From [Mycobacterium] crassicus (GTDB lineage: Bacteria; Actinomycetota; Actinomycetes; Mycobacteriales; Mycobacteriaceae), in contig NZ_CP084029.1 of assembly GCF_020181615.1 (NCBI RefSeq), positions 575,911-639,910 of the forward strand: a DNA stretch of 64,000 nt, read 5' to 3'. Position 1 is the first letter of the stretch; the number at the start of each line of letters is the position of its first letter. The notes beneath the pieces were generated by a model that saw only the letters and a list, made by a program, of their open reading frames with translations, searched no databases and had not been told where the DNA came from. Below are positions 40,786 through 54,275 of the stretch, piece after piece. Both the position numbers and the translations under genes were made by a program.

Positions 40786-43700
40786 ATGAGCTGGCCGGAC
40801 GACACGCCCCTCCGCACACTGGTGGAACTGCTGACGCGGCGTGCCGAAAAATGCGGCGACAAACCGGCCTTTACGTTCTCCCGCGACGGCGACGAGAACG
40901 AGACCAGCGAGGTCTCCTACGCCGAACTGGACCGCCGCGCCCGCCAGATCGCTGCCGACCTGCAGCGTCAGGGCGCGGGCGGGGAACGAGTGCTGGTGCT
41001 GTGCCCTCCCGGCCTGGACTTCCTCGCCAGCTTCTTCGGCTGCCTGTACGCCGGTGCCCTCGCGATACCGGTTCATCCGCCGATGCGCGAGCACCTGGTC
41101 CCGCGCGTCGCCTCGATCATCGCCGACGTCAAGCCCGGATACGCGCTGACCACGGCAGAGATTGAGCCCAAGATCAAGCCCGCGATCGACGCGCTGCCCG
41201 GCGGGCAGGCGTTGCGCTGGTCGATCGTCGACGCCGGCACGTCCGGAAATGAAGCGGATTGGGTGCCGCCGCAGATCGACGGCGATTCCGTCGCGATGCT
41301 GCAGTACACCTCCGGGTCGACCAGCGCGCCGAAGGGCGTGGTGCTCACCCACGGCAACCTGGTGCACAACCTGCTGACCATCGCCGAGGCCTATAGCCCG
41401 ACGCCCGACATGGAGATCGTCGGCGTGTTCTGGTTGCCGCCGTATCACGACATGGGTCTGATCGGCGGGTTGTTGGGGACGATGTACGTCGGCGGCAGTT
41501 CGATCCTGATGCCGCCGACCGCGTTCATCAAGCGGCCGATGCGGTGGTTGGAGGCGATCTCGCGGCATCGCGCGGTGATCACCGCCGCACCGAACTTCGC
41601 CTTCGACATGTGCGTCGAGCTGTCCAGCCCACAGGAGCGCGCCGCGCTGGACCTGTCCAACTGGAGCGTGGCGCTGTGCGGCGCGGAACCGGTGCGCACC
41701 GCCACCATGGACGGGTTCGCCGCGGCGTTCGGGCCGGCCGGCTTCCGGCCGGAGGCGCTCTACCCGGTCTACGGACTGGCCGAGGGCACCCTGCTGGTCT
41801 CCGGCGGGTCGGACTCCGCGGTGCCGGTGGTGCTCCACGTCGATCGCATCGCGATGCGCGACAACCGGATCGTGGAAGTGGCCCCGTCGGACCCCACCTC
41901 GACCACGCTGGTCGGCTGCGGCAAGCCGCGAGGCGGCCAGCGGGTGATCATCGTCGACCCGGACACCCGGTTGGCCTGCGGTCCCGACGAGGTCGGCGAG
42001 ATCTGGGTCTCCGGTGGCAGCGTCGCGCACGGCTACTGGGGCGCGCCGGAACTGTCCGAGGAGACCTTCGCGGCCACCCTCGCCGACACCGGGGAAGGCC
42101 CGTTCCTGCGCACCGGCGACCTGGGTTTCCTGCGGTCCGGTGAGCTGTACGTCACGGGCCGCCGCAAGGACCTCATCATCATCCGGGGCAACAACCACTA
42201 CCCGAATGACATCGAGCTCACCGTGCAGAACACCAACCCGGCGCTGCTGCGCGGCCGGGGCGCGGTCTTCTCGGTCGCGCCGGATGCGGGAGCGGCCGAA
42301 CAACTCGTCGTCGTGCAGGAAGTCGACCCGAGCCGGCTGGACGCCGCGCAACTCGAGGACGCGATGCAGACGATCCGCACCGTCATCACCGAGAACCACG
42401 CGGTGCGCACGTATGCCGTCGTGCTGGTGCAGCCGCTGCAGCTGCCCACCACCTCCAGCGGCAAGATCCAGCGCAGTTCCTGCAAGCAGAAGTACCTCGA
42501 CGGCGAGCTGCCGGTGGTGGCCGCCTGGCCCGCCGCCACACCCACGCCGCAGGCCGCGCCGGAGGCCCAGCAGCCCAGGGCGGGCGGGGACGGCGGGGCC
42601 GCCCAGGCCCAGTCCGCTGCCGGACCACGCAGTGCGGCCGAGATCAGCGCCTGGCTGATCGACCGGCTGGCCCAGGATCTCGAACTGCCGGTCGCCGAGC
42701 TCGACCCGGCCAAGCCGTTCGCCTTCTACGGGCTGGACTCCATTCACGCGGTGCGCCTTTCGACCGCCCTGGAGGAGTGGCTGGGCTGCGAGCTGGCCCC
42801 GACCATCGCCTACGAATACCCGTCCATCGACATCCTGTCGGCCCACCTGGCGCGGGTCGCCGAGAAAAACCCCACCGCTCCGGCAGCGGCTGTCGCCGAG
42901 CGCACCGAGCGGCCCGCCGCCGACGAGCCGATCGCGATCGTCGGCATCGGCTGCCGGTTCCCGGGCGCCGATGGGCCCGAGGAGTTCTGGCGGTTGCTGT
43001 CCGGCGGGGTGGACGCCACCAGCGAGGTCCCGGCCGACCGCTGGGACGTCGACGCCTTTTACAACCCGGACCCCGCGGTGCCGGGTACCGCGGTCACCCG
43101 CCGGGGCGGGTTCCTGGACCGGGTCGACGAGTTCGACTACCAGTTCTTCGGCATCTCCCCGCGCGAGTCGGCGCAGATGGATCCGCAGCAGCGGTTGCTG
43201 CTGGAGGTGGCGTGGGAGGCGATGGAAGACGCCGGCCAGGCGCCCGGCGCGCTGGCCGGGACGCGCACCGGTGTGTTCGTCGGCATCTCCACCAACGACT
43301 ACGGCTTCCTGCGGCTGGGCCAGCCCCAGCTCGTCGACGCCTACACCGGCACCGGCAACGCCCTGAGCATCGCCGCCAACCGGTTGTCGTACACCTTCGA
43401 CTTCCACGGGCCGAGCCTGTCGGTCGACACCGCCTGCTCGTCGTCGCTGGTCGCCGTCGACCTGGCGTGCCGCAGCCTGCGTGACGGCGAATGCAGCATG
43501 GCGCTGGCCGCCGGCGTGAACGTGATCCTGTCCCCGGCTTTGGCGATCAACTTCAGCAAGGCCCGGGTGATGGCACCGGACGGCCGCTGCAAGACCTTCG
43601 ACGCCGACGCCGACGGCTATGTGCGCGGCGAGGGCGCCGGGGTGGTCGTGCTCAAGCCGCTGAGCCGCGCGCTGGAGGACAACGACCCGATCTACGCGGT

Positions 43701-53282: not shown

Positions 53283-54275
53283 ATGCGTGCATTCGTCACC
53301 GGGGGAACCGGTTTCGTCGGATCGAACCTGGTTGCCGCCTTGCTGGATCGCGGCATCGAGGTGCGGGTGCTGCGTCGTGCCACATCGCCGATGGCCGCGT
53401 TGGAGGGTTTGGACTGCCAGACCCGGATCGGCGACGTCAATGACGGCGTCGATGCGCTCGCCGAGGCGATGGCCGACTGCGACTGGGTGTTTCACACCGC
53501 GGCGATCTCGGACTACTGGCGGTACCGCACCCAGACCCGGCTGTACCGCACCAACGTCGACGGCACCCGCGACATGGCGGCGGCCGCCCTGCGTGCCGGG
53601 GTGAAACGCTTCGTCTACACCAGTTCGCTTGCCGCCCTGGGTGTTCCTCAGCGGGGGCACCAGCTGGTGGAGACCGACGAGTTCAACATCCGCCCGCGGC
53701 AGTTTCCATACGGACACAGCAAGCACCTCGCCGAGGCCGAATTGCAGAAGGCCGTCGAGGACGGTCTGCCTGCGGTGATCGTGAACCCGTCAGTGGTCAT
53801 CGGGCCGCGCGACGTCAACCGCATCGCCAGCGCGATGCTCGTCGAGGCGCAGCGCGGCCGACTGTGGTTCGCCGCTCCGGGCGGCACGAACTTCGTCTCG
53901 GTCGACGACGTAGTGGCCGGCCACATCGCGGCCGCCGAACGAGGCCGGGTCGGCGAACGCTACATCCTGGGCGGTGAGAACCTGCCGTTCCGTGAGGTGT
54001 TCACCGCCGCCAACGAGCTGTTCGGTCGGGGTGCTCCATCGATCGTGTTGCCGCGCTGGATCATTCCGGTGGCAGCGGCCGGTGTCAGTGCCGCTCGCAC
54101 CGTTGTGGGTCCCCGGTTGCCGATCGACGCCCGTCAGATGCGGCTGTCGTTGGCCGATATCTACGCCGATCCCGGCAAGTCCCACAATGAACTGGGCGTG
54201 CCGTTCACCCCGTTCCGCACCGCACTGCACAGTGGCTACGAGTGGTATCGCGACAACGGCTACCTGGAAAGGTAA
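53283..54275 (+). CDS. extended SDR (OleD/CerR/3-beta-HSD-like) dehydrogenase
   Basis: 330 residues, 5 bases after the NRPS stop. NAD(P)-binding TGGTGFVGSNLVAALL, catalytic Thr/Ser region VYTSSLAALG and the YxxxK in YGHSKHLAE. Closest in pattern to dihydroflavonol-reductase/3-beta-HSD-type reductases such as OleD, which reduces the beta-keto product of the KASIII-like OleA, and bacterial 3-ketosphinganine reductase CerR. In this operon it probably reduces the ketone made by the KASIII module (inference). It ends the operon, tail to tail with the HNH gene. Confidence 0.85.
   Translation: MRAFVTGGTGFVGSNLVAALLDRGIEVRVLRRATSPMAALEGLDCQTRIGDVNDGVDALAEAMADCDWVFHTAAISDYWRYRTQTRLYRTNVDGTRDMAAAALRAGVKRFVYTSSLAALGVPQRGHQLVETDEFNIRPRQFPYGHSKHLAEAELQKAVEDGLPAVIVNPSVVIGPRDVNRIASAMLVEAQRGRLWFAAPGGTNFVSVDDVVAGHIAAAERGRVGERYILGGENLPFREVFTAANELFGRGAPSIVLPRWIIPVAAAGVSAARTVVGPRLPIDARQMRLSLADIYADPGKSHNELGVPFTPFRTALHSGYEWYRDNGYLER

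Follow-up and report, generated by a model that had tools for sequence, protein, structure and literature searches.

Assembly lines usually finish by hydrolysis, cyclisation or reduction. Here we examine a line from [Mycobacterium] crassicus in which a fatty acyl-AMP ligase (FAAL), a polyketide synthase (PKS) and a non-ribosomal peptide synthetase (NRPS) are followed by a tandem of two ketosynthase III (KASIII) domains and by a short-chain dehydrogenase/reductase (SDR). It lies in a 64,000-nucleotide window (contig NZ_CP084029.1 of assembly GCF_020181615.1, positions 575,911 to 639,910 of the forward strand), to which all coordinates below refer; the host genome is one 4.87-Mb contig, and its closest named relatives in our searches are Mycolicibacter and [Mycobacterium] nativiensis. 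The described mycobacterial FAAL-PKS pathways, such as those for mycolate, phthiocerol dimycocerosate (PDIM) and sulfolipid, resemble it in that a FAAL feeds a type I PKS, and to our knowledge none of them ends in C-A-PCP-KASIII-KASIII (C, condensation domain; A, adenylation domain; PCP, peptidyl carrier protein). For the tandem itself, the closest described systems are condensing enzymes that form carbon-carbon bonds. In lipstatin biosynthesis, LstAB pairs an active LstA subunit (C128/H271/N305) with LstB, which supplies E60, and the C128A, H271A and E60A changes each kill activity (PMC12141560). In PpyS, the E105A change removes the product, and Glu105 comes from the other monomer in the published model, while MxnB and CorB, in the FabH clade, carry Val instead (PMC4578411). 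In all OleA proteins of one study but two, Glu117 is followed by Pro (PMC7064751). Finally, the 3-ketone of Caulobacter ceramide synthesis is proposed to be reduced by CerR after N-acylation (PMC11087976). We consider it probable that the tandem in the window is a fused pair of the LstA/LstB type, which would end the FAAL-PKS-NRPS line by Claisen release of its chain to a second acyl thioester, with the SDR reducing the product. Release through such a built-in pair would link the chain to a second lipid by a carbon-carbon bond.

Three open reading frames (ORFs) of the plus strand make up the line (Table 1), with intergenic gaps of 3 and 5 bases, and their coordinates bear out the close spacing noted in the original prediction. 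Pfam assigns to the first protein AMP-binding and FAAL-type C-terminal domains, two PP-binding domains, and ketosynthase (KS), acyltransferase (AT) and ketoreductase (KR) domains, and to the second Condensation, AMP-binding and PP-binding domains and two ACP_syn_III_C stretches. The parts of a hybrid PKS-NRPS with a FAAL starter, namely FAAL, acyl carrier protein (ACP), KS-AT, ACP and C-A-PCP, are all present with catalytic motifs, those of KS, AT, KR, C and PCP being intact; matches of the first protein to the NCBIfam FAAL models fall under the model cut-offs. Pfam and motifs thus support the domain order that had been read from the letters, with a single extension module containing a ketoreductase and with one, serine-like, amino acid. 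The same holds for the claimed lack of a thioesterase or terminal reductase, as no thioesterase or thioester-reductase family is among the Pfam matches of the two proteins. As to the KASIII-KASIII ending, the pair is indeed present, but the second domain lacks the catalytic Cys and His, and a reading as two working ketosynthases is the less likely one. Our literature search, with MIBiG and most subscription papers outside its scope, yielded no description of this architecture, and in the accessible main text of a review of FAAL enzymes (PMC11837247) KAS, ketosynthase III, Claisen and ceramide do not occur as word starts.

The residues of the tandem were compared in a 25-row table (22 fused tandems and three stand-alone pairs, from three of the four stand-alone loci fetched), in a first NRPS set of 132 rows, 130 of them distinct, and in a second set of 119 rows, one of which is the window. 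The Glu, Cys, His and Asn of domain 1 and the Glu of domain 2 are kept throughout (25/25, 132/132 and 119/119 for both domains), and in domain 2 no row has Cys or His where the alignment puts these catalytic residues, one row of the second set being gapped at the His. The Glu at the OleA position is followed by Pro in all 25 aligned tandem rows. A fourth stand-alone pair (L070, in G060), in which the first ORF is interrupted, was excluded from the residue table and the trees. In LstB and in the stand-alone second genes, a Cys occurs one residue later than the catalytic position.

For direct comparison we used an lst-type operon of Streptomyces sp. NBC_01343, which came from a plasmid search and is annotated as coding for a KASIII protein, a hypothetical protein, a fatty acid CoA ligase, an epimerase/dehydratase, an NRPS and a formyltransferase. 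In BLAST, domain 1 shares 34% identity with the LstA of this operon (181 bits, versus 66 bits for the host's own FabH), and domain 2 shares 28% with the LstB (92 bits, versus 52 for FabH and 42 for LstA), with Glu1555 aligned opposite Glu59 of LstB. The tandem resembles LstA/LstB in its identity, in the LstA-then-LstB order, and in the combination of an active Cys-His-Asn subunit with a second subunit bearing the essential Glu; it differs in that the two units form one protein with an NRPS, in that neither LstC nor LstF is found beside it, and in its substrate, presumably a PCP-bound N-acyl-serine rather than a free acyl-CoA. With OleA it shares the fold and the Glu-Pro signature, but OleA works as a homodimer of one protein. 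Two maximum-likelihood trees were built, of 41 and 31 rows, with long branches flagged and without an OleA row; they retain L002_own, which is in the wrong frame and shows no KASIII motifs, and L003_own, which resembles a type III PKS. Domain 1 clusters with LstA and with the stand-alone first genes, away from the host's FabH (support 98/98 and 99/98). Domain 2 falls in both trees on the LstB side of a branch, away from FabH, without a supported clade of domain 2 plus LstB.

This grouping, together with the absence of Glu at the OleA position in the two FabH chains compared, speaks against a FabH-type decarboxylative condensation with malonyl-ACP, which would lengthen the chain by two carbons. 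The KASIII fold and a FabH-level similarity would suit such a reaction, which we nevertheless regard as quite improbable. The residue pattern, the LstA/LstB homology, the position of domain 1 in the trees and the loci of ole type described below place the tandem with LstAB/OleA, and it is better described as one putative condensing unit of this type than as two working ketosynthases. A confident predicted model of the two-domain KASIII part (pLDDT 87, pTM 0.92) is in line with this.

Several comparisons weigh against this placement. The profile score of domain 1 is higher for FabH (129 bits) than for OleA (76 bits), and a fold comparison, the rows of which cover domain 1 only, ties OleA, FabH and PqsD. 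One locus (L024) was excluded from the structure alignment. The SDR, in turn, is less OleD-like (99.5 bits against NF042422) than LstD is (231.5 bits). The closeness of the domain 1 profile score to FabH, and its intact Cys-His-Asn, would also be expected of an acyltransferase-type KASIII, the kind to which CerJ and DpsC belong, in which case the tandem would pass the N-acyl-serine chain to another molecule as an ester or amide. We hold this to be unlikely: the Glu is invariant in both domains and is essential to carbon-carbon bond formation in LstAB and PpyS (PMC12141560, PMC4578411), and two stand-alone relatives of the tandem sit within ole-type operons.

The latter belong to four Bacteroidota loci at which the KASIII tandem is a separate protein. 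In two of them the tandem lies beside OleC (700 and 710 bits), an OleD-like protein (416 and 417 bits) and an alpha/beta hydrolase resembling OleB; at L054 the hydrolase is of the haloalkane-dehalogenase type (171 bits, below the cut-off of 241), and a P450 is also present. On the strand opposite to the ole-type operon, a FAAL-type gene occurs at L054 and PKS-like ORFs at L058. The tandem KASIII proteins of Saprospiraceae (L057 and L059) are found near a GH3-family adenylating enzyme, an unusual partner.

If the tandem is of the LstAB type, a complete route may be proposed. The FAAL would put a fatty acid onto the first ACP, and the single PKS module would extend the chain, probably with methylmalonyl, a choice suggested by the AT motifs GHSLGE and VASHSP, and would reduce the ketone. 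The NRPS module would then join the beta-hydroxyacyl chain to serine, giving N-acyl-seryl-PCP. With an acyl group carried on Cys1243 of domain 1 and Glu1555 of domain 2 as base, a non-decarboxylative Claisen condensation with a second acyl thioester would create the carbon-carbon bond, release the chain and yield a beta-keto acid, which the SDR could reduce before or after loss of CO2. OleD-type enzymes act before CO2 loss, and in that case the product would be a ceramide-like acid that keeps the carboxyl group, or the delta-lactone which this forms with the serine hydroxyl. Either direction of attack, with serine as nucleophile or as electrophile and with CO2 loss, would lead to the same 3-ketoceramide skeleton, composed in one direction of serine C1-C3 and an acyl chain that has lost its carboxyl, and in the other of serine that has lost its carboxyl and the complete acyl chain. 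Two variant architectures, one with the tandem straight after FAAL-ACP (P0230) and another with the tandem after a partial KR and an ACP (P0228), fit a tandem that accepts carrier-bound acyl groups. Dieckmann release to a tetramate was considered and rejected for the family, although single members may differ: the beta-keto amide is not shared, and three of the four further PKSs scanned (L056, L072 and L074, but not L044) contain dehydratase (DH) and enoylreductase (ER) domains besides the KR.

The chain could in principle leave as a beta-lactone, as it does in lipstatin and nocardiolactone, given the LstAB homology and an SDR distantly resembling OleD and LstD. The NF042422 (OleD) cut-off of 580 bits is reached neither by the SDR nor by the OleD proteins of the ole operons or LstD, with the scores given above. 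For the lactone synthetase the model recognises known members: against PRK09274 (cut-off 478 bits), LstC of NBC_01343 scores 591 bits and the two ole-operon OleC proteins pass as well, while the window genome has no match above the cut-off, its best listed candidate reaching 175 bits, and one of 35 genomes has one (28 candidates scored per genome). A beta-lactone end is unlikely because the controls pass and the window genome is without an OleC/LstC above the cut-off, in which it also differs from OleA systems; we would give it a very slim chance. The SDR gene lies within 10 bases of the NRPS gene in 16 of the 30 genomes that carry the full tandem (see below), and a different SDR (30-32% identity) is beside it in G048, G224 and G038.

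The identity of the amino acid was approached through the adenylation code, read at the PheA positions through an alignment to LgrA. The window's code, DPWHFSLIDK, equals the EntF (serine) code at eight of ten positions, with an unusual Pro at position 236, and serine is the nearest amino acid to it, so that the domain may be called serine-like. When the pattern D[VP]WH-x-SL-[IV]-DK is taken as serine-like, it is present in 94 of the 132 rows of the first NRPS set and in 88 of 98 rows of the second, the window excluded, and the Nocardia and Thermosporothrix rows have DVWHISLIDK. The remaining 38 rows of the first set have other codes, and in the second these are DILQLG- (seven rows), DLTKVGEVGK (two) and DAAHTGEITK (one); we take the first to be glycine-like and the second to be near asparagine. 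Non-serine codes are found in the more distant mycobacterial lines with an FtsX gene nearby (L051, L072, L073 and L075-L079), and one protein (P0224) has no A domain by Pfam. Judged by these codes, serine is frequent in the family of NRPS-KASIII lines and spread across deep lineages, and is not universal. The notion that serine is essential for the whole family was dropped in view of the other codes in 38/132 and 10/98 rows, and P0198 (FAAL-ACP-C-A-PCP-KASIII-KASIII, without a PKS) was rejected as a minimal ceramide line, its code not being serine-like.

A further proposal, which we put forward tentatively and hold to be rather doubtful, is that the line is a ceramide synthase, in which NRPS-held N-acyl-serine and a second acyl chain would be joined by the LstAB-like tandem into a 3-ketoceramide, to be reduced by the SDR. 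Its predicted end, an N-acylated serine-derived 3-ketone with a dedicated reductase, is like that of the Spt/bCerS/CerR pathway (PMC11087976), which it would resemble in its working without being a member, having neither a pyridoxal phosphate (PLP)-dependent Spt nor bCerS among the three operon proteins. The Spt result comes from the Pfam matches of these three proteins, the rest of the genome not having been searched. If the serine reading is right, the line would represent an independent chemistry for bacterial sphingolipid-like molecules. Under the ceramide proposal, carriers in Mycobacterium (as GTDB defines it), Nocardia and Ktedonobacteria might produce lipids resembling ceramide with no need of serine palmitoyltransferase (SPT). 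SPT is known to choose between Ser and Gly; lines with the glycine-like code would, under the same proposal, yield 1-deoxymethyl analogues.

Distribution was assessed in 248 genomes of the same genus, drawn evenly from a larger group and including that of the window. The tandem is matched at E 1e-20 or better in 103 of them. Full tandems are present in 30 genomes as 31 copies with 58-100% identity, in open frames of 1762-2383 amino acids except for one of 909 amino acids on a 6.6-kb contig. The other 73 genomes have other forms only, which, among the matches listed, mostly show some 33-39% identity in the first domain and frequently have an adjoining second gene. Adjacent stand-alone pairs of the LstA/LstB kind, with approximately 34-37% identity in the first gene, were seen at L066, L069 and L071 (G224, G081 and G117) and on plasmid pDK1 of Rhodococcus sp. 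DK17 (L083), where the neighbours of the pair are Hsp20, CBS-domain, universal stress and ppsA genes rather than those of a lipstatin-like operon. Named genomes, when scanned, yielded 39 loci, and in Nocardia amamiensis (47%) and Thermosporothrix hazakensis (45%) a PKS precedes C-A-PCP-KASIII-KASIII. Two protein searches, the sets of which overlap and each of which covered up to 7998 candidates, returned at least 476 and at least 474 members over threshold, with details taken from the best 120 of each; named members belong to Actinomycetota and Chloroflexota, and Ktedonobacter, Dictyobacter, Ktedonosporobacter and other Ktedonobacteria are among the named matches of the second search. The family of tandem proteins thus looks large.

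Table 1. Positions of the assembly line, its domains and adjoining features in the window
Feature	Coordinates	Strand	Basis
FAAL-ACP-KS-AT-KR-ACP protein, 2370 aa from ATG	40786..47898	+	ORF, Pfam
FAAL domain, AMP-binding and DIP2-like/FAAL C-terminal domain	40834..42516	+	Pfam
First ACP	42652..42849	+	Pfam
KS domain; DTACSSS, EAHGTGT and VKTNIGH motifs	42925..44322	+	Pfam, motifs
AT domain; GHSLGE ... VASHSP	44536..45492	+	Pfam, motifs
KR domain; HAAGTVDDA (including VDD) and S-Y-N motifs	46678..47211	+	Pfam, motifs
Second ACP; GVDSL; approximate borders	47494..47706	+	Pfam, motif
C-A-PCP-KASIII-KASIII protein, 1791 aa	47902..53277	+	ORF, Pfam
Condensation domain; HHIAVDFWS	48010..49347	+	Pfam, motif
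Adenylation domain; code DPWHFSLIDK (serine-like)	49411..50862	+	Pfam, alignment
PCP; FFALGGAST	50947..51132	+	Pfam, motif
KASIII domain 1, LstA-like; Glu1218, Cys1243, His1384, Asn1421	51271..52287	+	alignment
KASIII domain 2, LstB-like; Glu1555 kept, Ala1589 replaces Cys, Pro1717 replaces His	52399..53274	+	alignment
Extended SDR, HpnA/3-beta-HSD/OleD-like; candidate beta-keto reductase	53283..54275	+	Pfam Epimerase/3Beta_HSD
Inverted repeat AACCTT-AATC-AAGGTT in the interval separating regX3 from the PKS gene; may be an operator or promoter element	40703..40718	.	
DUF222/HNH gene between the SDR and amidase genes; possibly a mobile or repeat element	54286-55623	-	
ORF of a BBE-type FAD oxidase, which probably starts closer to 58650; may act in tailoring	57255..58874	-	
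FtsX-family permease; candidate exporter	58651..61182	-	
ABC transporter ATPase adjoining the FtsX permease	61164..61961	-	

The line had been described as inserted beside regX3, between genes in the order of M. tuberculosis. The slot stands, but further genes besides these three lie between regX3 and the next conserved ones, in a region that extends to about 61961 and includes a DUF222/HNH gene of the 13E12-repeat kind, an amidase, a berberine bridge enzyme-like (BBE-type) oxidase, an FtsX permease and an ABC ATPase. The slot is, moreover, lineage-specific, since regX3 adjoins the line, approximately 10.6-10.7 kb before the KASIII tandem, in only 13 of the 30 carriers; in the other 17 its best match lies 108 kb or more away or on a different contig. 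Further downstream follow an ORF of 271 amino acids without a family, Ppx/GppA, an ORF, a xylose-isomerase-like protein, a 4HBT thioesterase, an ORF and an epimerase, an order which presumably corresponds to Rv0495c-Rv0501 of M. tuberculosis.

Among the neighbours, the permease accompanies the line in many carriers. At E 1e-100 or better it is found in 22 of the 248 genomes, all of them among the 30 tandem carriers, with eight carriers lacking it at this threshold. It has 23 copies, 21 of which share a contig with the tandem at a distance of 13 to 7053 bases, and two of which are on other contigs of draft genomes. Seen only in carriers of the line and adjoined by the ABC ATPase, it is a good candidate for an exporter. 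One genome, G245, has two copies of the NRPS line (L079 and L080), each accompanied at 14-16 bases by an FtsX gene of its own. The BBE-type oxidase is near the line at no fewer than 17 of the 39 named-genome loci, several of which are truncated, with 64-96% identity.

Upstream, the PKS ORF could begin at TTG 40717 or at ATG 40786; the latter is the better start, as the TTG falls inside the inverted repeat of Table 1. This repeat is partly conserved: in ten aligned genomes it is exact in four, has one change in five and several changes in one (L091). Elsewhere in the window genome, the KASIII search also matched an ORF of a type III, chalcone-synthase-like PKS (G000:C1:735407-735682).

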